A stretch of 41,326 nt of DNA from Defluviitaleaceae bacterium (GTDB lineage: Bacteria; Bacillota; Clostridia; Lachnospirales; WQUN01). Location of the stretch: contig WRGY01000121.1 of the NCBI GenBank assembly GCA_009786925.1, positions 1 through 41,326 on the forward strand. Reading direction: 5' to 3'. Position 1 is the stretch's first letter; the number at the start of each line of letters is the position of its first letter. Below, piece by piece: positions 1-18,155 of this stretch. The translations under genes and the position numbers were made by a program. The notes beneath the pieces are model-generated. The model was not told where the DNA came from. It worked only from the letters and a program-made list of their open reading frames with translations, and ran no database searches.

Positions 1-911
1 GCATCGGTGAGGGCAAGGTCTGCTTGGGCATTTCTATTGAAAACACTGGCAAACATAAGCCCTGCCGAGCCGATTATACCCATTTCGTCCTTTGTAAATG
101 TACGCGATTTTGTACAATCGTCTATTCTAAAGAAGCCGATTAGCTCATTGTTCATAAATAGCGGCAGACATACAATGGAGAGCATTTCGTATTGGGAAAA
201 AAATGCCTCCTCCTGTGGCGGAAGGTCTGCCAGTGGTGAGTTTATGCTCTCGCCTCGTTCAAATTTTTCCAGCCAGCTCTTCCATTCACTGTATGGGTAG
301 CTAGACCCCAGTGGGACGGACTTTCTCTGCTTTCCTATTTCACTTAACCACTCGTAACGCATCACAAAATGCAACTCATCATCTATTATTTCGTTACGCA
401 ATATCTGCACGCGGTCTACCTTTAAGCAACGCCCTACGATTTCCATGCCTTCCATCAATACTTGCATGGTATCCTCTTTGTTTGCGGTCAGTAGAGCCTC
501 TGCGGATTTTATTACTGCGGAGAGCAAGTTTTCGGAGGCTTTTGTCTCCCTCATGTCCTTCATGTATTCTACAAGCAGCGTTTTTCCTTCATATGTTACG
601 CATTCACCAAAAACCTCTACAGGAAGCTCCTCACCGTTTGGTAAACGATACATCCAATCACTGCAATGATAGCTGCCAGCCTCAAAAGCCCCTCTGACAA
701 GCATGTCTGAAAGCTCGGCAGAAGTCGTGCCGCATGGTTGATACTCCGGCAAACAATCCAAATACCTTGCAATGCATTCTTCCTTAGTCTTTATCCCAAA
801 AGTATCCAACAACCGCTGATTGCAATCAATCAGCTTATACGTATCGTCCCATATTTTTATCATCATGGGTGATGCATCCAATAACAAGTCTGCCAGTTCG
901 AGTCCGTGCAT
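1..911 (-). CDS. PAS-GAF sensor protein, C-terminus cut off by window edge
   Basis: An open frame runs leftwards from an ATG at 911 off the window edge without a stop, giving at least 303 residues. The start has a good ribosome binding site (GAGGTGA, 4-5 bases upstream). Residues about 5-118 read as a PAS domain (MIKIWDDTYKLIDCN, then a YQPCGTTSAEL segment and PNGEELPVEVFGE). Residues about 130-300 read as a GAF domain (LPLFMNNELIGFFRID, TKDEMGIIGSAG). No membrane segment precedes the PAS, so this is probably a cytoplasmic signal sensor. The output domain (histidine kinase, GGDEF or other) lies outside the window. The PAS resembles that of the hybrid kinase at 30043-32604, suggesting the two are related. 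Domain calls are by motif only. Confidence 0.8.
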   Translation of the reverse strand, partial: MHGLELADLLLDASPMMIKIWDDTYKLIDCNQRLLDTFGIKTKEECIARYLDCLPEYQPCGTTSAELSDMLVRGAFEAGSYHCSDWMYRLPNGEELPVEVFGECVTYEGKTLLVEYMKDMRETKASENLLSAVIKSAEALLTANKEDTMQVLMEGMEIVGRCLKVDRVQILRNEIIDDELHFVMRYEWLSEIGKQRKSVPLGSSYPYSEWKSWLEKFERGESINSPLADLPPQEEAFFSQYEMLSIVCLPLFMNNELIGFFRIDDCTKSRTFTKDEMGIIGSAGLMFASVFNRNAQADLALTD

Positions 912-940
912 ACTTCACCTCGGCATTTTTTTTCACTATA

Positions 941-970
941 ACACAAAAAAAGCCACGTTTCCATGGCTTT
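941..970 (-). terminator. Rho-independent terminator after mazF
   Basis: AAAGCCA (949-955) pairs perfectly with TGGCTTT (964-970) around an 8-base loop. On the minus strand the stem is followed by a T-rich run. It lies just downstream of the mazF stop at 987 and closes the gerS-alr-mazF unit. T-rich sequence also flanks it on the plus strand, so it may work in both directions. Confidence 0.75.
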
Positions 971-986
971 GTGTTTTTGGCAGATT

Positions 987-1334
987 TTATGTATCCAACC
1001 CAAGGCTGATACTGATTGCGCGATTTACCCGACGCATTATATTTTCGTCCAAGCGGCATATTTTTTCGCGCAGTCGTTTTTTATCAATCGTGCGTATTTG
1101 TTCCAACAAAATAACAGAGTCCTTTACCAGTGTAGAATTTGCCGAATCAATTTCTATATGCGTAGGTAGTTTTGCTTTATTAATTTGTGATGTAATGGCG
1201 GCACAGATTACTGTGGGGCTGTATTTGTTACCCACATCGTTTTGTATAATTAAAACAGGGCGCACTCCGCCTTGCTCTGACCCTATTACGGGACTCAGGT
1301 CTGCGTAAAAGATTTCGCCTCTCCATACTTGCAC
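987..1334 (-). CDS. mazF: MazF/NdoA-type endoribonuclease toxin, no antitoxin gene adjacent
   Basis: A 115-residue protein of the MazF/PemK/NdoA family, mRNA interferases that cut single-stranded RNA at short motifs. The sequence shows the family N-terminus [19 protein letters not shown], then [17 protein letters not shown] and the [17 protein letters not shown] block, close to Bacillus NdoA and of normal length. The start is GTG at 1334 because GGAGGTG sits 6 bases upstream; a TTG at 1349 in the same frame is itself part of that ribosome binding site. It follows alr by 36 bases, the classical Bacillota position. The usual small antitoxin gene (mazE/ndoAI) between alr and mazF is absent, and no such frame fits in the gap. 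The antitoxin may be elsewhere or the protein may be free-standing. Confidence 0.92.
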
Positions 1335-1370
1335 ATCTATCACCTCCAACTGATTAGATTGTTCCCACCA

Positions 1371-2525
1371 TTAATTGGAAATATACACTCGAGGGACACG
1401 TTTTCCTATACAGCATAAAATTTCGTAACTGATTGTACCCACAGTGTCTGCCAAACACTCGGCACTTATGTTGTTATCTATGGTATCAAGCATTATTACG
1501 GGGTCGCCCGGTTTTACATCAGGTATATCCGTGACATCCACCATACACTGGTCCATACAAATGGCACCCGCAATCGGTGCAAACTTTCCGTTAACAAGCA
1601 CCCTACCGCCATGCGAGAGCCTCCGCGGATAGCCGTCTGCATAGCCTACAGGAAGCACTGCGATTGTACTCGGACGTGTTGTTTTATAGATATGACCGTA
1701 GCTTATGCCTACATCAGCAGGCAGCTGTTTTACCATGCTGACCTGCGACATAAAGCGCATGACAGGCTTTAACCCAAACCCCTTACATACTTCTGCCATT
1801 TCTCCCGAAGGTGGGTGTCCATACAGCAAAATCCCGGGTCTCACTACATCAAGGAATAAATTTTTCATATGTATATCAAAGTTTTTGCGCAAAATTTGTG
1901 ATATTGCGCCGGAGTTTGCTGTATGTTTTATGGGAATATGCAGGCCGCGGTCTTGCAGCTCGCCCACCACCCAATTAAAGCGAGCGAGCTGCTCATGCAT
2001 AAAGCTACTGTCATATGCGTCTGATGTAGCAAAATGGGTGTAGATGCCCTCCGGATACAGATTGGGATTTTTTGAGATGGAGCAGATTTCATCCACGCTT
2101 TCTTTTGTTGGTAAAAAGCCCAGACGGCTCATGCCTGTGTCAATTTTTATATGTATAGTCGCCCGCTTATTGTATCGGGCGGCCTGTGACGCTAAAATCA
2201 CTGCACTTTCCTCACTAAATACAGTCTGCGTCAAATTGTTTTCTATAATGTACGGCAAAAGCGGCTCGGGTGTAAATCCCATGACCAAAATGGGCAGAGT
2301 GATTCCGTTTTCTCGCAGGGTAACGCCCTCTTCGCAAATAGCTACGCCAAGCGACCCCACACCGCCCGAAACAAGTGTATGTGCCACAGGCACGGCTCCG
2401 TGACCATAGCCGTCTGCTTTTACAATCCCCATGATGTCTACGCCACCAAAATAATTTTTGAGCGACATTAAATTATGCGACAAATGCGCAAGATTAATTT
2501 CTGCCCATGCTCTTTGGTACTTCAC
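1371..2525 (-). CDS. alr: Alanine racemase
   Basis: Pyridoxal-phosphate enzyme of 384 residues that interconverts L- and D-alanine for peptidoglycan. In Clostridia an alr beside gerS may instead supply a spore-associated racemase. The PLP lysine is K36 in the IVKADGYGHG motif. The catalytic tyrosine is about residue 276 in SYGHIYKT, and the GAICMDQCMVDVT block is typical of the C-terminal beta domain. The length is normal. The start is GTG at 2525 with a GGGTGA-like ribosome binding site. It lies 31 bases after the GerS-like lipoprotein gene and 36 bases before mazF on the same strand, so the three probably share a transcript. Confidence 0.95.
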   Translation of the reverse strand: MKYQRAWAEINLAHLSHNLMSLKNYFGGVDIMGIVKADGYGHGAVPVAHTLVSGGVGSLGVAICEEGVTLRENGITLPILVMGFTPEPLLPYIIENNLTQTVFSEESAVILASQAARYNKRATIHIKIDTGMSRLGFLPTKESVDEICSISKNPNLYPEGIYTHFATSDAYDSSFMHEQLARFNWVVGELQDRGLHIPIKHTANSGAISQILRKNFDIHMKNLFLDVVRPGILLYGHPPSGEMAEVCKGFGLKPVMRFMSQVSMVKQLPADVGISYGHIYKTTRPSTIAVLPVGYADGYPRRLSHGGRVLVNGKFAPIAGAICMDQCMVDVTDIPDVKPGDPVIMLDTIDNNISAECLADTVGTISYEILCCIGKRVPRVYISN

Positions 2526-2556
2526 AAAAAATCACCCAAAATTCAGTTTGTACAAA

Positions 2557-3204
2557 CTATAATGTAAATAATGCGTCTGCCAATGATACGTTTTTCTCAA
2601 AAACGTGATATGTAACAACAATACGCTCTGTGCCGTCGCGGTCAAAGACAACTAATTTTACAGGAACCAAGCTCTCGTTGTCTACCCACAAACGCGCAGT
2701 GGAAAGATATGGATGGTCGCCGGGTACAGTAGCCTCTAAAACAGTACGCACGCCTTCTTCCATATCCGATACGCTAACAGAAATCTCATCACTTTGCAAA
2801 TAATTTTTTATAAAACTCGTTAAAAAAATTTCGCTACGTTCCTGTGTTTCGCTTACAAGAAGGTTTACACTGCCGTTTACTCTGCTGTTAAACTGAAATA
2901 TTTGCTTGTTATCGCTGGTTGTCACACTTCCTGCCACATGCTCAGGTGCAGTGACCTCTACACGGTATTCTCCCGTAATCCTGGCATGTTGGATTGTCTC
3001 ATATGTATTTACACCCTTGTTTGAACGATACTCAACTGTAGCGATTGCTCGAAAAGTTTCGAGTTCCATGAGCATTTTTTGCACACGCTCAAATGCGGAT
3101 ATTTCTTCCGTGTCTGTGGGTCCTCTCAGGTCGCTCCCTCCACACGCCGCAAAAACAGCCAACAATGTCAGTACGATGGTAATTTGCAATACTTTTTTAA
3201 ACAT
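2557..3204 (-). CDS. GerS-like LolA-fold lipoprotein
   Basis: A 215-residue secreted lipoprotein with an N-terminal hydrophobic signal and a lipobox ending at C21 (VFAAC). The rest reads as a beta-rich LolA/MucB-like fold, with alternating strands such as FRAIATVEYRSN, YRVEVTAPEH and KQIFQFNSRVNGSVNLLV. In Clostridioides difficile the germination lipoprotein gene gerS sits immediately before an alanine racemase gene; GerS works with GerSI to licence the cortex hydrolase SleC. Position and fold both match here, so a role in spore cortex hydrolysis is a fair inference, although I cannot show orthology. Its ribosome binding site GGAGGG lies in the 3' arm of a long hairpin (3209-3253), so its translation may be controlled. 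Confidence 0.72.
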   Translation of the reverse strand: MFKKVLQITIVLTLLAVFAACGGSDLRGPTDTEEISAFERVQKMLMELETFRAIATVEYRSNKGVNTYETIQHARITGEYRVEVTAPEHVAGSVTTSDNKQIFQFNSRVNGSVNLLVSETQERSEIFLTSFIKNYLQSDEISVSVSDMEEGVRTVLEATVPGDHPYLSTARLWVDNESLVPVKLVVFDRDGTERIVVTYHVFEKNVSLADALFTL

Positions 3205-3208
3205 AAAA

Positions 3209-3253
3209 AATTCCCTCCGTTAAATTATTTTTTATAATTATACGAAGGGAATT
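3209..3253 (-). terminator. Long hairpin that is both a terminator and a cover for the gerS-like ribosome binding site
   Basis: AATTCCCTCCGT (3209-3220) and ACGAAGGGAATT (3242-3253) pair over 12 positions with one mismatch, with a 21-base AT-rich loop. Read on the minus strand, the 3' arm contains GGAGGG, the ribosome binding site of the lipoprotein gene, and is followed by TTTTTT and then the ATG at 3204. The structure therefore looks like an intrinsic terminator for the upstream degV-ndpA-GH130 genes and also sequesters the next start. It may set relative expression of the two gene groups. Confidence 0.7.
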
Positions 3254-3265
3254 GAGGTTTAATGC

Positions 3266-4282
3266 TTAGTCTCTCCCGATGTCGCTGTCACCATGGAGCA
3301 AATTGTTTGTTTCCTTAGTAAATTTAATAATATCGTCTACAGTGCCAAAGGCAATGCCTGTGTAGGTATCTGCCGTGCCATAGTATATTGCAATACGCCT
3401 CGTAGGCGCGTCTACAAGTGCCGCGCATGGGAAACACACATTTTGTACAAAGCCGACTGTCTCGTATGGCTCCTCCGGGGTAAGCAAATAATTCCCGCTC
3501 CTATAAAGCACTTTGGATGGATTTTCCAAATCCAACAACGCCGCACCAAAACTGTAGACATATCCGTTGCATGTAAGTACAACACCGTGATAAATCATGA
3601 GCCAGCCCTCGTCGGTCTCTATGGGAATCGGCCCCGCACCTATCTTGAGAGACTGCCACGAGCCACCCGCCTTCATCACACAGCGATGCTTGCCCCAAAA
3701 CGTCATATCAGGGCTTTCTGAAAGATAAATATCGCCAAACGGCGTATGTCCGTTATCACTTGGGCGCGAAAGAAGTACATAGTTTCCGCCGATTTTACGC
3801 GGGAAAAGCACCCCATTACGGTTATGCGGCAAAAACGCATTTTCTAATCGCGTAAATGTCTTAAAATCCCGCGTTTTTCCAAGTCCGATAGTGGGCGACC
3901 CTGCAAAAGAAGTACACCACATTATAAAATAATCATCACCGATTTTTGTAACGCGAGGGTCATAGCCATAGGCCGGTTGAAACGGCTTTCCGCTTTCATC
4001 CACCCATTTTATGTCTTCGTCGTCCAGTTGCCAGTTGACAGCATCCTTACTCCTGCCAAAATGCAAATGCATGGTGATGTCCTTGTGGTCTGCGCGAAAA
4101 ACCCCTACAAACTCATCCCCATACGGCACAACCGCACTGTTAAATACCCTTGCCGCCTTAGGCCCCGGGTTTTGTTTGAAAATCGGGTTGCCGCTGTACC
4201 GCCAAAGTATTTCTTTATGCCCTGTGGGTTTTTCTTCCCATGGCATATTAGGTATTGCTTGCTCTCCAAATATTTTCGCCAT
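3266..4282 (-). CDS. GH130 family beta-mannoside phosphorylase
   Basis: A 338-residue cytoplasmic protein of glycoside hydrolase family 130, inverting phosphorylases that split beta-mannosides (for example mannosyl-glucose, mannooligosaccharides or beta-1,2-mannobiose) with phosphate to give mannose-1-phosphate. Family signs are the N-terminal WRYSGNPIF, FNSAVVPYGDEFVGVFRAD, the catalytic aspartate D108 in YGYDPRVTKIG, and HTPFGDIYLSESPDM. There is no signal peptide. The start at 4282 has GGGGAGG upstream. It follows the nucleoid-associated protein gene by 14 bases. Exact substrate and subfamily cannot be read from the sequence, and no mannoside transporter is adjacent. Confidence 0.88.
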   Translation of the reverse strand: MAKIFGEQAIPNMPWEEKPTGHKEILWRYSGNPIFKQNPGPKAARVFNSAVVPYGDEFVGVFRADHKDITMHLHFGRSKDAVNWQLDDEDIKWVDESGKPFQPAYGYDPRVTKIGDDYFIMWCTSFAGSPTIGLGKTRDFKTFTRLENAFLPHNRNGVLFPRKIGGNYVLLSRPSDNGHTPFGDIYLSESPDMTFWGKHRCVMKAGGSWQSLKIGAGPIPIETDEGWLMIYHGVVLTCNGYVYSFGAALLDLENPSKVLYRSGNYLLTPEEPYETVGFVQNVCFPCAALVDAPTRRIAIYYGTADTYTGIAFGTVDDIIKFTKETNNLLHGDSDIGRD

Positions 4283-11431: not shown

Positions 11432-11500
11432 CACTAATATAGACAGAAAAAAAAATGGTTGGTTGCAACGGTTGCAGAAAAATTTCTGTCTATATTAGTG
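11432..11500. promoter_or_regulatory. Symmetrical divergent ECF-type promoter pair in a perfect 18-bp inverted repeat
   Basis: The 18-base sequence at 11432-11449 is repeated exactly as its reverse complement at 11483-11500. In the centre is the palindrome GTTGCAAC (11462-11469). Rightwards, TGCAAC (11464-11469) is followed 17 bases later by TGTCTA (11487-11492). Leftwards, TGCAAC (11467-11462) is followed 16 bases later by TGTCTA (11445-11440). Both resemble ECF sigma promoters (AAC-type -35, CGTC-like -10). One points at the sigma factor gene, the other at degV-ygjV. As RNA the repeat could also form a long hairpin. Assignment to the adjacent sigma factor is inference. Confidence 0.65.
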
Positions 11501-11514
11501 AGGATGGTGATTTA

Positions 11515-12078
11515 ATGGAAGATGCAGAAATTTTGGATATGTACTTTAGCAGAGAAGAAGCGGCTTTATCTGAAACAAAAACAAAATACGGCAGACGACT
11601 GTTTAAAGTATCAAACAACATACTACACAGTTCGGAAGATGCAGAAGAAAACGTAAACGATACTCTTTTAAAAAGCTGGAATGTAATCCCACCGAGCCGC
11701 CCCTTAATGTTTGGCGCGTTTTTGGCAAAAATCGCTCGCAATCTTTCGCTAAACAAATGGGAAGCAAAAAATGCCGCAAAGCGCGGCGGTGGAGAAGTGG
11801 GTATAATGCTCGGGGAACTTGAAGAGTGCATACCTTCAGCGGACAACAGTCCGGAAGAAGCCCACGAAGCCCTTGTCGTAACCGATACAATAAACATATT
11901 CTTAAGTACACTGGACAAACCTGCAAGGGTGGCATTTATACTACGCTACTTCCACAGCGAAAGCATAAGCACGATAAGTACACGTTTCAAAATGAGCGAA
12001 AGCAAAATAAAATCATTATTGTTTCGCACAAGAAAAAAGCTGCGCACACATCTCGAAAAGGAGGGAATAACAATATGA
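11515..12078 (+). CDS. ECF-type RNA polymerase sigma factor
   Basis: A 187-residue sigma-70 family protein of ECF size. Region 2 runs over about residues 20-90 (GRRLFKVSNNILHSSEDAEENVNDTLLKSWNVIPP, with FLAKIARNLSLNKW at its end). Region 4 is at about 125-185 (LDKPARVAFILRYFHSESISTISTRFKMSESKIKSLLFRTRKKLRTHLE), a clear helix-turn-helix. The ATG at 11515 is chosen because an earlier in-frame ATG at 11455 lies inside the promoter repeat; AGGATGGTGA precedes the chosen start. It is coupled by ATGA overlap to a small membrane protein that is a candidate anti-sigma factor. It probably controls itself and degV-ygjV through the adjacent repeat. Confidence 0.92.
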   Translation: MEDAEILDMYFSREEAALSETKTKYGRRLFKVSNNILHSSEDAEENVNDTLLKSWNVIPPSRPLMFGAFLAKIARNLSLNKWEAKNAAKRGGGEVGIMLGELEECIPSADNSPEEAHEALVVTDTINIFLSTLDKPARVAFILRYFHSESISTISTRFKMSESKIKSLLFRTRKKLRTHLEKEGITI

Positions 12079-12284
12079 AAGAAAAGAGACTATTGCTTTG
12101 CATAGGCGAAATAAGCGACATATTTTTAGAAGAGGCCGAAACCGCAATTTTTGCAATATCAAAGCGAAAAAAAATCGCTAAGTATGGCGCGTTGGCCGCT
12201 GCCGCTGCTGTTGGCATCGCACTCACGTACAAATTTGTACTCTACCGACGCGCAAATACACAGGTTGTAGCTAAAATCGCATAA
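12075..12284 (+). CDS. Small single-span membrane protein, candidate anti-sigma factor
   Basis: A 69-residue protein starting at the ATG that overlaps the sigma factor stop (12075-12078), with GGAGGGAATAACAAT upstream. Residues 1-35 form a charged helical stretch (MKEKRLLLCIGEISDIFLEEAE, then a basic KRKKIAK). Residues about 37-56 are one hydrophobic helix (YGALAAAAAVGIALTYKFVLY), and a short tail follows. The order, coupling and topology (cytoplasmic N-terminus, one membrane span) suit a minimal anti-sigma factor or membrane anchor for the sigma factor. It has no recognisable zinc-binding anti-sigma domain, and there is no sequence proof of function. Confidence 0.75.
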   Translation: MKEKRLLLCIGEISDIFLEEAETAIFAISKRKKIAKYGALAAAAAVGIALTYKFVLYRRANTQVVAKIA

Positions 12285-12357: not shown

Positions 12358-13977
12358 ATGAATTTATCTAAAGCGATAAAAGCATTCGCAGGATTATTAT
12401 TTCTGCCTGTGCTTTTATTTTCTTGTGGCGGAAATCAAACAGTAGACGACAGTCAAACCTTACTCCCATTTCGTAATGGTGTGTTTTCCGGTGTTAGTGT
12501 GGGTTATCTTGGTGACATACATGTAGAGGTCGAAGTTGCGGATGGTCGGATTGTGCGTCTGGATGTCACGCAACATGAAGAAACCCCGGGCTTTGCTTAC
12601 CCTACTTTTGAAATAATGCGGGCTGCTATTACTTTTAATCAAAATACCGATGTTTCGTTGGTTACAGGTGCTACGTCTACGTCCAGAGCTTTTAGGGAAG
12701 CGGTGGAGTCTGCCTTGGTACAGGCGGGTGTTTCGCTTGCACAGCTTAGACCCGGTGCTACGACCGCACCCGGTATCGCTGTGGCCGGTGGTGTTGATGT
12801 TGCGCAGGCACCCGTTGCTGTTGTTACGCTTGATACTTCTTTGTCTGCGGCGGCATTGTTGGCTTTGCCTGTTTCTACAGCGAACTTTACGCCCGGGGAT
12901 TTTATTGTAACTGTTCCCGGTTGGCAGGAAGCACCTATGACGGTGCAGGTTTCTTTTACAGAAAATCAAATCGTTGGTATAGAAATTCTTGACCACAATG
13001 AGTCTATGTATGGCTCCGGCTGGGGTTTTAGGGCAATGCCCGCTACACAGGACCAGATTCTTGTGAGGCAATCTACACAGGATATCGACGTGTTTACCGG
13101 TGCGACTATAACAAGAAACGCCATTGTAAACGCTGTGGAATACGCCATTGTACAAGCCGGTGCAGACCCTGTGCAGTTAGTACCACAGTTTATTACCGAA
13201 CCTTTGCCCGGCGATAGGTTTATCCCGGGCTTTATAGAAGTAAATGTACCTGCAAATACGATGGATATATATGGCAATCCACTCACAGAGGGTGCAATGA
13301 GGATGCTGTATAGCCAATATGCCGACATGAATCTACGCCTGTCCTTTGGAAGAAACGAATTCCATTTGCATAGTGGTGGTGGCTTTGGTCTGGGTCAAGG
13401 TAATGGCGGCCATGGAGAGTCTGTATATGGAGCGGGCGAAATTGGCGGAGGTGCATTAGGCGGATGGTGGTTTAGGCAAGTGGTAAACCATCAGGTAAAC
13501 GATAGGCAATCTACACAAAACATAGACATCGTTACAGGTGCTACTATGTCTGCGGCCGCGATTATTTGGGGTGTTGAACAGGGCATGATTGCGCAGGGCG
13601 CAAACCCGACACAAATCACACCGATAACATATCCGCGTGTACAAATCCACCGCAATCCATCCGGAGAATCTACCGACCCGTTTTTTGAGCCAAGTATATA
13701 TACAGTGACAGTAAATGCATGGGGTGGCCCTATGGTAGTTAGGGTGACGCTCGACAGGACTAATGTACGTCGTATCGAGGTGCTGGAGCATAACGAAACT
13801 GAGTCTTTTTGGGATATGGTATGGGGTGCCGGTGCAGACCATATAATGCGCAATGGTATTCTGCTTGCGGGTGCGAGTGGGCTTGATGATGTTGACCTTG
13901 TTACCGGTGCTACTGTTTCGTCAGCCGCCTTGGTCGAAGCTGTTCGTTTAGCTATGGAAGAAGCGTGGATAAACTAA
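12358..13977 (+). CDS. Lipoprotein with four FMN-binding (flavinylation) repeats
   Basis: A 539-residue lipoprotein (lipobox FSC, C23) with four FMN_bind-type repeats. Each ends in a covalent flavinylation motif TGATx(S/T): TGATST with acceptor T108, TGATIT with T252, TGATMS with S398 and TGATVS with S521. Repeats 1, 2 and 4 have the full beta-rich domain ([71 protein letters not shown]). Repeat 3 has lost much of this and instead carries a Gly/His-rich stretch at about residues 335-370. Such proteins (like Listeria PplA) receive FMN from ApbE and carry electrons outside the membrane. An ApbE gene lies at 16242-17234. The ribosome binding site is GGGGG, and a chemoreceptor follows 16 bases downstream. 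Confidence 0.92.
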
Positions 13978-13993
13978 ACTTTGGAGGTTAGTC

Positions 13994-16252
13994 ATGACCC
14001 TATTTAAAAATCTTAGAATCGGTGCAAAATTAGCTTTTGGTTTTTGTGTTTTGTTGGTTGTCTTATTTATCATCACGGCGATGTCATTTATTTCTTTGAT
14101 TGGGATAGAAAGGGATTACTCCAATATTTTTTATTACCCTTCTGCACAGCACGAAAAGCTTAATGCTATCGAACTGTATCTACTTGACTCTAGGCGCATA
14201 ACCGCACTTTCTGCCCTAAATGCAAGTAACGAGGACGCGCTTAACGGCTTGGAGCGAGAAATAGCGGACACAAGGGCTCTTATCGTACAAAATGTAAATG
14301 CAGTAAGGGCAAGCTTTGAAAACGACCCTCTTGTTTCAGAAGAAGTACAGCAAAAACGACTACGCCAGCTTCACCTGCTAGAAAACCTAATGTACATCTA
14401 TATAGATGGTTTTGTGCCTTCTATTATCACATTATCTCGTGCGGGGCATCAGGCAATAGCACTTAATCTTATAAACGAAGCCGCTGGTGGTTTGTTTAAA
14501 AATGTGTACAACGAGTTTACGGTTTTGCATTATGACATACGCGACTACATGTACAGCACAAGAGATGCCATCAGCGCGTCAAACAATGACACTCTAGCGA
14601 TGATGTTTGCTATCACCGCTATCGCAACAGTGCTTGGTTTAATTATTGCCTTCATCGTAACAAAAATGATTACAAAACCTGTAACAGACGTAGTCTATGC
14701 AATAGAAAACATGGCAAACGGAAACCTAAACGTAAACATAAAAGATGATGCAAAAGACGAAACAGGCAAACTCGCAAGGGCAGCAAAAACAATGGCAAGC
14801 ACACTAAAACGCTTGATAAACGAAATGGACAATATGGCAAACGACCATGACAAGGGTGAGATAGACACCTTTATAAAAGCCGAAAGTTTTAATGGCGACT
14901 ACGGTACAGTTGCTACAAAAATCAATGGAATGCTAAAGTCGTCGCTGTCTACACAAAATCGAGCAATAGAGACATTTGTAAAAATAGCAGAAGGCGATTT
15001 TGCCGCAGATATAGAAAAACTACCCGGCAAAAAAGCCAAAATAAACGATGCAATAAGCGAAATGCGCACAAGGATAGAATCCGTAAGCGACGAAGTAAAC
15101 ATGCTAATAAACCAAGCGGCAAACAAGGGACAACTATCCGTAAGCATCGACGAAAGCAAATACGATGGCGGATGGCTAACAATAATGAAGGGGCTAAACT
15201 CCCTAACACAGGCGGTAAACACCCCGATAGTAGAAATAAGAGACGTAATGGCGCGCCTAAACAACGGCCATTTTGACAAAACTGTAGTAGGCGATTACAA
15301 GGGCGACTTTTTGACAATAAAAGAAGCTGTAAACGAGGTAGTATCGGCATTAAACAAATATGTAGCAGAGATAAACATATGCCTAAACGAAATCGCAGAG
15401 GGCAATCTAACGCATAAATCCACGATGAACTTTGTTGGTGAGTTTTCTAAAATAGGCGAATCTATGGGGCATATCACAAATTCATTAAACAAAACGATGA
15501 CAGAAATCAACTCGGCATCGGGTCAAGTATTGGCGGGTGCAAAACAAATAGCATCGAGTGCAATGGATTTGGCAAATGGTGCAACAGAACAAGCAAGCTC
15601 GATAGAAGAATTAAACGCCTCGATAGATACAATAAATAAACAAACAAGCGACAATGCAGAAAGTGCGATGGAGGCAAGCAGTATATCTGTAAAATCTACA
15701 GAAAACGCCCGCGAGGGTAATAATGCGATGTCGAGTATGATGGACTCGATGCAACAAATAAAAGAATCGAGCCAAAATATTTCTAAGATAATAGGAACGA
15801 TACAAGAGATTGCATTCCAAACAAATCTGCTCGCGCTAAATGCCGCGGTAGAAGCAGCAAGAGCAGGCGAACATGGAAAAGGCTTTGCAGTAGTGGCAGA
15901 AGAGGTAAGAAACCTGGCATCAAGAAGCCAAAAAGCCGCAACAGAAACCACAGGGCTAATCCAAACCTCAATAGATAAAGTAGAAATGGGCAACGAAATA
16001 GCAGACAAAACATCGGAATCCCTAAACGTCATAGTGTCAAACGCAGACGATGTTTTACAGATAATAAACAAAATAGCAGAAGCCTCAAAGGAGCAAGCCG
16101 AAGCAATAGAGCAAGTAAGCATAGGGCTAAACCAAATATCCCAAGTAGTACAGAGCAACTCAGCGGTATCAGAAGAAGCCGCGGCAGCATCCGAGGAGCT
16201 AACCTCACAGGCAGAAATACTACAACAGCTTGTGGATTTCTTTAAGATTTGA
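13994..16252 (+). CDS. Methyl-accepting chemotaxis protein with poly-HAMP linker
   Basis: A 752-residue membrane chemoreceptor. Transmembrane helix 1 is at residues 11-31, a helical extracytoplasmic sensor follows to about 200, helix 2 is at about 202-224 and HAMP at about 225-278. Then come two or three further HAMP-like units (segments with [25 protein letters not shown] and [16 protein letters not shown]). The signalling domain is complete, with the tip [22 protein letters not shown] at about 605 and [12 protein letters not shown] after it. There is no C-terminal CheR-docking pentapeptide. The start has GGAGG 7 bases upstream. It lies 16 bases behind the multi-FMN lipoprotein gene with no terminator between them, so it is probably co-transcribed and may sense redox state or electron acceptors. 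The 3' end overlaps apbE by 11 bases, tail to tail. Confidence 0.93.
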
Positions 16253-17234
16253 TTACTGTACCATCTGCAAGCACCCATATCGCCTGCGCACCAAAATCTT
16301 GCATCAGCCTTTTTCCTTCTTCTATGTCCATGATAAAGGCTGCAAGCGAAAGATTTTCTGCTACGATACTGCTGGGGTGCATTACCGTAACAGATGCGGC
16401 AACCGAAGCGGGCATCAGCGTACTTGGGTCAATAATATGGTGCATCCTAACCCCATCCACAACAAAATAACGTCGATAATCACCGCTGGTAAAAACAGCG
16501 GTATTTTTTGTAAAAATCACATCTATTATTTCGCCCCGGTTATTTGGGTCTGTTACACCTACGCCCCATGCGTCCCTATCCACACTACGTGGTGCTTGTG
16601 CAAGAAACATATCACCACCGACAGAAAGCGTAAAAGATTCAAACCCTTTTTCCATGACAAAATTTGCTGTTTTTTCTATAGCAAAGCCTTTGCCTATACT
16701 CCCGATGTCCAAGGACATACCCTCGTATCGCAAAAACACCGTACTTTCTTCTGCATTTATCACAATGTCGTTGATGTTTGTTAGCTTGCTTGCATAGATT
16801 AGTGCTTCCATATCTGGCAAAGTATTTGCGGATGATGATATATACTCACGCCAAATTTTTGTCACTGCACCTATCGCTATATTTACTACCCCATTTGTTT
16901 GGTGGTAGGCTTTCTTGCCTATAGTTAAAACTTCTATAATATCCTCATGTACTTTTACAGACGCGATACCCGCATTTCTATTTATGGTATAAATATTATT
17001 TATGCCTTGATACTCATTAAACATATCAAACAATATATGAAAATGGTGCAACTGCTCATGGATTACATTGCTAAAATATTCAAATTCCTCAATAGTCTCG
17101 GCATAACCTATCACGCTGGTAAATGTATCAAACACATCAAAAAACATAACATTAAACCGTTCGTAGTTTTCTTCTTCATAAGAAGCACAGCCCATAAAAA
17201 CCAAAAGAATAAATAAAACCATAAATTTATACAT
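16242..17234 (-). CDS. apbE: FAD:protein FMN transferase lipoprotein
   Basis: A 330-residue ApbE-family enzyme anchored by a lipobox (FMGC, C16 from the chosen start). It moves FMN from FAD to Ser/Thr in TGATx(S/T) motifs of secreted flavoproteins, here most likely the four-repeat lipoprotein at 12358-13977. Family motifs are [12 protein letters not shown] near the start, the substrate pocket segment [26 protein letters not shown] and [13 protein letters not shown] with the metal-binding aspartate region. In the last motif the usual glycine after Thr (DPxTG) is leucine. The second ATG (17234) is preferred because GGGGG lies 6 bases before it; the first ATG at 17240 directly abuts that site. 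It is the last gene of a three-gene minus-strand operon. Confidence 0.92.
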
Positions 17235-17236
17235 CT

Positions 17237-17749
17237 TCATCCCCCATTAATTCTATTAAAAGCAGGAATAATAATTTTCAAAAACATCCCGGTGACTGTC
17301 CCAAAAACTGCACCGGTAATAATAAGCACAGGAAAATAAAAAACAAACAATCTAAAATCCCAAAGAAAAATGCAAGCAACAACAAGCTGTCCAACATTAA
17401 AGCCAATAGCACCCGCAACGCTATAAATAACATAAGAAATCCTTTGCCTAAACATAAAAAAAAGCACAAGCATAATAATAACCGAAAAAACCCCACCGGA
17501 AAAACTTAAAAGCCCGGCAACAGGCCCACGCAACAAAAATCCAAAAAGGGCCTTTAGACCCACCATAACAAACGCATCTTTTTTACCGACAAAAAAAAAC
17601 ACATACATAACAATAACATTAGCAAGCCCAATCTTACTAAACTGAGGAGGCAACATAGGAAGCGCGGGCATAGCTCTCTCTATCAAAAGTAAAACAAAAA
17701 CCATAGCAAGCATCATACCCATAAATGTAATCTTTTTTACATCAACCAC
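17237..17749 (-). CDS. Gx transporter / heptaprenyl diphosphate synthase component I-like membrane protein (EetB-like)
   Basis: A 170-residue membrane protein with about five helices (ITFMGMMLAMVFVLLLIERAMP, then FSKIGLANVIVMYVFFFVGKKDAFVMVGLKALFG, LLSFSGGVFSVIIML and the ITGAVFGTVTGMFLK end). It matches the small family once annotated as heptaprenyl diphosphate synthase component I, now often called Gx transporter, and resembles substrate-specific components of ECF transporters. This family occurs next to NusG-II and ApbE genes in flavin electron-transfer loci; the pair resembles EetA/EetB of Listeria. The start is GTG at 17749. The stop overlaps the apbE start region, and the NusG-II gene is 13 bases upstream. 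Confidence 0.8.
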   Translation of the reverse strand: MVDVKKITFMGMMLAMVFVLLLIERAMPALPMLPPQFSKIGLANVIVMYVFFFVGKKDAFVMVGLKALFGFLLRGPVAGLLSFSGGVFSVIIMLVLFFMFRQRISYVIYSVAGAIGFNVGQLVVACIFLWDFRLFVFYFPVLIITGAVFGTVTGMFLKIIIPAFNRINGG

Positions 17750-17762
17750 CCAAAGCCCACCC

Positions 17763-18134
17763 CTACCTGTTTTTTACGAACAAATCTATCCCGGCACTAT
17801 CCGCGTCTTCTCCTAAAATAGCCAAAACCGTATTGTTTGGCAAACAAACAGCCATTTGCCCGACGCGGCGTAAAAACCCCACATGCACGCACACCTTATC
17901 AGGGCAATCCGACTCCAAAAACGCAATTTGCCCATCTCTAATCTCAAACACAATATTTTCATTAGACGGCAAAGTAAATATCAAATCATCATCAAGGCTA
18001 AAAGTTGTAACACCAAAGAGACATGTAATCTGCGCAAAAACACCATCATCCCGCCTAAAAAAATAACGAGAAACCAGCAACAGTCCGCCCAAAATCAGAA
18101 TAATACCTACAATAATAAAATCTTTTTTTGTCAA
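17763..18134 (-). CDS. NusG domain II-containing membrane protein (EetA-like)
   Basis: A 123-residue protein with one N-terminal membrane helix (FIIVGIILILGGLLLVSRYFF) and an outside NusG-II domain carrying the characteristic ESDCPDKVCVHVGF and RRVGQMAVCLPNNTVL blocks. The three cysteines (two in DCPDKVC, one in VCLPN) are conserved in this family and could bind metal or form a disulfide. The start is put at TTG 18134 because the promoter at 18156-18184 would start transcription near 18149, after the in-frame GTG at 18152; GGGTGGCGA precedes the TTG. It heads the operon with the Gx-like protein and ApbE, a set found in extracytosolic electron-transfer loci. Confidence 0.82.
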   Translation of the reverse strand: MTKKDFIIVGIILILGGLLLVSRYFFRRDDGVFAQITCLFGVTTFSLDDDLIFTLPSNENIVFEIRDGQIAFLESDCPDKVCVHVGFLRRVGQMAVCLPNNTVLAILGEDADSAGIDLFVKNR

Positions 18135-18155
18135 ATCGCCACCCGCCCCCACGAA

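Follow-up and report, generated by a model that had tools for sequence, protein, structure and literature searches.

Gene content of the locus

The window analyzed here (the whole stretch of 41,326 nucleotides) belongs to a MAG of 2.28 Mb in 127 contigs that is 90% complete (G000), whose GTDB relatives are termite-gut MAGs, mostly labeled Defluviitaleaceae, with the termite origin read from isolate names. The locus begins with a forward-strand gene (12358–13977) for a lipoprotein of 539 aa with four FMN_bind domains (PF04205, E 1.2e-48, in four stretches). The lipobox cysteine, Cys23, is the sole cysteine of the protein, and a single cysteine is also found in 3/3 of the paired orthologues described below. 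Four [ST]GAT motifs are observed, compared with a mean of 0.06 in shuffles. All lie on the forward strand: SLVTGAT (motif 1, 12655–12675), with Ser in place of the usual Asp; DVFTGAT (motif 2, 13087–13107) and DLVTGAT (motif 4, 13894–13914), both with the usual Asp; and DIVTGAT (motif 3, 13525–13545), which lies inside a divergent FMN_bind domain with an insertion that scores 21.2 bits, below the 22-bit cut-off. The four flavinylation motifs are kept in all four orthologues, including the window copy, and the Asp of motif 1 is retained in the others (DLITGAT, DLISGAT and DIITGAT). Site 1 of the window protein thus lacks its Asp, yet an Asp-to-Ala change in the flavinylation motif of another target barely affected flavinylation (a minor effect, reviewed in PMC12052999), so that three or four flavins are to be expected from the sequence. 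Like recognized multi-flavinylated proteins, the lipoprotein is exported and has more than one FMN_bind domain with the motif, domain 3 being weak. Its fold model is poor (pLDDT 62.7), and the closest solved chain is 8p2b, domain 1 of CbFMN4, a protein that carries covalent FMN when produced with ApbE (PMC10339131). The lipoprotein is thus a surface protein, probably with four covalent flavins.

Two further observations concern the lipoprotein gene and its surroundings. Four histidines of domain 3 (His336, 338, 352 and 378; window 13363–13491) are conserved, most of them being common to relatives in extracellular electron-transfer (EET) loci too, and they are a possible metal site. Just upstream (11455–12284) lies an ECF sigma gene overlapping at its stop with the start of the next gene, which encodes a candidate anti-sigma of 69 aa that likely has one membrane helix. 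This combination was considered as a part of the system and set aside, as it was not found at the paired flanks fetched from the other three genomes (G002, G009 and G096).

The lipoprotein stop is separated from the ATG of the next gene by 16 bp (13978–13993, forward strand) containing a GGAGG ribosome-binding site. That gene (13994–16252, forward strand) encodes a methyl-accepting chemotaxis receptor of 752 aa (MCPsignal, 1.7e-47; HAMP_2, HAMP and HAMP_N3), with a transmembrane sensor, HAMP domains and a signaling domain, and CheA is encoded in the same genome; CheA and several flagellins were found in 11/11 genomes tested. The extracytoplasmic sensor domain (approximately residues 34–197; 14093–14584, forward strand) is predicted to be a Tsr-like four-helix bundle (AlphaFold2, mean pLDDT 82). 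Foldseek places Tsr at the top, NarQ next and MCP2201 lower, at the weak E-values (best 6.5e-3) that helix bundles usually give, and the paired receptor of G096 matches Pfam 4HB_MCP_1. The remainder comprises a HAMP array (residues 222–455; 14657–15358) and the MCP signaling domain (15683–16147), both on the forward strand. Domain search finds no PAS domain in the receptor, and its sensor domain contains no CXXCH heme motif, the only cysteine of the sensor region being Cys18, near TM1.

Three reverse-strand genes converge on this pair, the stop ends of the receptor and ApbE genes overlapping by 11 bp. They encode an ApbE family FAD:protein FMN transferase (16242–17240; PF02424, 1.3e-58), the only ApbE found in the genome; a Gx-like membrane protein (Hpre_diP_synt_I, 17237–17749; PF07456, 6.3e-29); and a NusG domain II protein (17763–18152; PF07009, 5.3e-18), for which the genome has one match. 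By domain, ApbE/FmnB-, EetB- and EetA-type proteins are therefore present in the window; the latter two we take to be EetB- and EetA-like from domain names and general knowledge rather than from comparison with the Listeria proteins. Domain searches accordingly bear out the genes named in the initial annotation, namely a four-FMN_bind lipoprotein, a poly-HAMP receptor close behind it and ApbE, Gx-like and NusG_II genes opposite. Of the limits given there, 12358 is the lipoprotein start, while 18134 falls within NusG_II, a gene that starts with GTG at 18152. The lipoprotein and receptor had been treated as belonging together, and neither a promoter nor a terminator match occurs in the 16 bp between them.

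Conservation of the lipoprotein–receptor pair

In a first search of 96 genomes the long lipoprotein was found in three members of one genus (G000, G002 and G009, each a different species), and a GTDB scan added a stretch (L092) of G096, an Oscillospiraceae-labeled MAG from another sample; all four genomes are MAGs. In 4/4 genomes found with this lipoprotein clade the receptor lies directly downstream on the same strand, at a distance of 16 bp in the window, 11 bp in G009, 104 bp in G002 and about 180 bp in L092. The outer flanks of the pair differ: ECF sigma and DegV in the window, a SigG-like gene and a Na+/solute symporter (SSF) in G002, a LeuA-like gene and ApbE in G009, and DsbD_TM and GNAT in L092. 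MCPsignal matches are few in the pair-bearing genomes (5, 14, 16 and 8), so that a random same-strand neighbor is expected to be an MCP in <1% of cases, and the pairing is beyond chance. Lack of conservation would have counted against the initial annotation; the pair is instead held in four genomes whose flanks are otherwise different.

The four paired lipoproteins form one clade (support 100/99) that is separate from the relatives found in classic EET loci. Both kinds occur in the G096 bin, which has, besides the paired lipoprotein of L092, a second copy in an EET locus (L096) next to Ndh2-like, FMN_bind, prenyl-synthase-type and UbiA genes. A candidate fifth pair in G052 was rejected because the receptor gene follows only after 2.4 kb and has a sensor unlike the paired ones (21–24% identity).

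Comparison of the receptors shows that the two halves of the protein behave differently. Sensor domains are 47–58% identical among paired receptors and only 21–35% identical to those of unpaired receptors, whereas for the signaling domain of the window receptor the order is reversed, with 52–53% identity to G002 and G009 and 57–73% to unpaired receptors. This contrast is conservative, because the unpaired receptors were chosen as best matches. When the sensor domain was searched against 116 genomes of relatives, only the three paired receptors scored above 100 bits, the next match being at 90 bits. The HAMP array also varies among paired receptors, that of G096 having no middle HAMP array, so that poly-HAMP, emphasized in the initial annotation as a feature of the receptor, is incidental and does not define it. 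By sequence comparison the conserved element is the sensor domain, with HAMP number and signaling domain varying around it, a pattern that would follow from a sensor domain that functions together with the lipoprotein and output modules that are swapped. Conserved sensor positions are biased to the membrane-distal half; pair-specific residues were tried as a marker of a docking face and discarded, their distal bias being weak (P 0.058).

Flavinylation genes and the question of respiratory electron transfer

The NusG_II, Gx and ApbE genes converge on the pair in G009 just as in the window; in G002 they lie at contig ends, away from the pair, and within the fetched L092 stretch of G096 the ApbE operon does not occur. 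On the G002 contig L101, a chemoreceptor gene (462–2858, reverse strand; HAMP, PAS_4, HAMP_2, MCPsignal) stands 11 bp before NusG_II (1–450, reverse strand), and thus the accessory operon of this genome seems to carry a receptor as well, a second and different one. In L092 the paired lipoprotein gene has a divergently oriented DsbD_TM (CcdA-like) neighbor (2693–3625, reverse strand); PMC8238504 lists DsbD as one of the membrane routes that carry electrons to flavinylated proteins.

Matches to ApbE, NusG_II and FMN_bind were obtained in each of the pair-bearing genomes G000, G002 and G009, and to none of the three in G001, G003, G004 and G006 of the same genus, each of which is at least 90% complete. 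Co-occurrence of the pair with NusG_II gives a Fisher P of 0.033 for ten genomes with kinship ignored. Since one ApbE was found in G002 and the paired lipoprotein is the only FMN_bind protein found there, the lipoprotein is likely to be the substrate of that ApbE. In the window genome an apparent Rnf-type operon (G000:C104, 9718–14496) includes an RnfG-like FMN_bind protein, a second candidate substrate that may share the single ApbE.

The initial annotation regarded the locus as a flavin EET locus tied to a receptor. The link to the receptor gains support from the pair in four genomes with differing flanks and from the sensor domain that travels with the lipoprotein; the EET designation does not. 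No match to an Ndh2-type NADH dehydrogenase was found in G000, G002 or G009, using one Ndh2-like protein of L096 as query and MAGs that are 71–92% complete; such a dehydrogenase is present in G096. UbiA was not found in G000, and its matches in G002, G009 and G096 are on contigs other than that of the pair. The lipoprotein was also tried against the PplA model and fails it (NF041941, 25.7 bits vs a cut-off of 325). A respiratory EET locus is thus not established, and this view of the window is the weaker one.

A proposed redox partner for the chemoreceptor

The reading preferred here, tentatively and at a confidence approaching an even chance, is that the four-helix-bundle chemoreceptor has the flavinylated lipoprotein as its extracytoplasmic redox co-receptor, or redox partner, in redox taxis. 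The elements of such a system exist as genes, from the conserved pair with its domains and motifs to the flavinylation machinery, CheA and flagellins. In vivo, the lipoprotein would face outward from the membrane, with as many as four of its threonines carrying FMN attached by ApbE. The flavins would receive electrons from a membrane module encoded nearby, which in the window and G009 is EetA/EetB-like and in G096 possibly DsbD/CcdA-like, and would pass them on to outside oxidants. Through its four-helix bundle the receptor would sense whether the lipoprotein is oxidized or reduced, or would sense the contact itself, and would then set CheA and the flagella, and with them taxis and its direction, making the lipoprotein a dedicated co-receptor. 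As the sensor domain has no redox centre of its own, it would depend on contact for sensing. The proposal of a redox-sensing partner draws on the type of the bundle, the likeness of the lipoprotein to CbFMN4 and two reported potentials: that of SaFMN3, a related multi-FMN protein, is -184 mV (PMC10339131), and Shewanella taxis to electrodes, for which flavins have been proposed as redox sensors, switches at about -0.2 V (PMC6336422). A more specific form of the idea, possible but doubtful, is that of a two-protein extracytoplasmic redox sense organ, in which the multi-flavinylated lipoprotein would equilibrate with extracellular electron acceptors and the bundle receptor would read it by contact, permitting redox taxis of a gut bacterium without a classic EET chain.

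Co-expression without contact would also account for the pair but is unlikely: the lipoprotein would be an electron carrier, and the receptor would respond on its own to an acceptor, to free flavin or to some other solute that is relevant whenever the carrier operates. Direct binding of small molecules is common in four-helix bundles (the Tsr and MCP2201 entries), and the two genes are co-directional with short gaps in the window and G009 but long ones in G002 and L092, so that tight coupling is unneeded. Against this, conservation of the sensor is specific to this lipoprotein clade and does not extend to the EET paralogues, even in the genome that also has an EET locus. Rather improbable is a non-redox co-receptor, in which the lipoprotein would capture a ligand like a solute-binding protein and dock on the receptor, the flavins and histidines binding the ligand or being vestigial. 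Binding proteins are known to partner four-helix-bundle receptors outside the cytoplasm (Tar with MBP, and Trg), and both the conserved histidines of domain 3 and the loss of the motif 1 Asp in the window would suit this explanation; however, all four flavinylation motifs are kept in 4/4 orthologues, and ApbE and NusG_II co-occur with the pair. That the adjacency is neutral, reflecting descent with no functional link, agrees with a small sample of MAGs in which 3/4 share a genus, but is very improbable, as the pair holds while its flanks differ, an MCP neighbor on the same strand is so rarely expected, and the sensor half tracks the lipoprotein while the output half does not.

If the lipoprotein is a redox partner, it would resemble several known systems in part. 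Like Tar and Trg, which are served by binding proteins, the receptor has a bundle sensor and a dedicated extracytoplasmic candidate partner; unlike theirs, the partner in the window is a lipid-anchored flavoprotein and not a solute-binding protein, and contact between the two is a proposal. Taxis by flavin redox state, as proposed here, is known from Aer, which however holds its own FAD in a cytoplasmic PAS domain (PMC12540587), whereas the flavins proposed here would be bound covalently to a different protein outside the membrane. The Geobacter c-type heme chemoreceptors GSU0582 and GSU0935 likewise link an outside redox cofactor to a chemoreceptor, but the heme is within their own PAS-fold sensor (PMC3460858), while the window sensor is a helix bundle with no heme motif. 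Taxis of Shewanella toward insoluble electron acceptors switches near the flavin potential, but involves free flavins and outer-membrane cytochromes, and no flavoprotein–receptor pair is described in the available part of that source (PMC6336422). Among the open-licence papers searched, none reports a pair of flavinylated lipoprotein and chemoreceptor or combines flavinylation, ApbE, extracellular electron transfer and chemotaxis, and papers that couple flavinylation or an FMN-binding domain with chemotaxis looked unrelated in the parts available. A covalent flavoprotein acting as a separate chemoreceptor partner would add a new form to these known systems. The conserved pair suggests that some termite-gut bacteria navigate by redox conditions outside the membrane and that some multi-flavin proteins are for signaling rather than respiration; one conserved flavoprotein and one receptor make a small system, of which both members are testable.

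Among flavin-based systems, the lipoprotein is like the multi-flavinylated proteins (Meheust 2021; CbFMN4 and SaFMN3, Tong 2023) in having several FMN_bind domains with D-x-x-[ST]-G-A-[ST] and in being exported, and differs in that its constant neighbor is a receptor. Meheust 2021 and its 2024 follow-up, both large genomic studies of flavinylation, have main texts that say nothing of chemotaxis or methyl-accepting proteins. FLEET (Ndh2, DmkA, PplA, FmnB, EetA, EetB) has in common with the window a multi-FMN lipoprotein, ApbE, NusG_II and Gx-like proteins, but in the window genome neither Ndh2 nor UbiA was found, a chemoreceptor is present instead, and the lipoprotein is not PplA by NCBIfam. 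FLEET-type loci house the nearest relatives of the lipoprotein in the same family (G030 and G016) and, in G096, the L096 copy. In the EET locus of G030 (L038, 15744–18216), near-identical small tandem genes (MNPHLTQQLQTGEI...TINPEKQGRHYVNH) lie between NusG_II and Gx, alternating with another short family.
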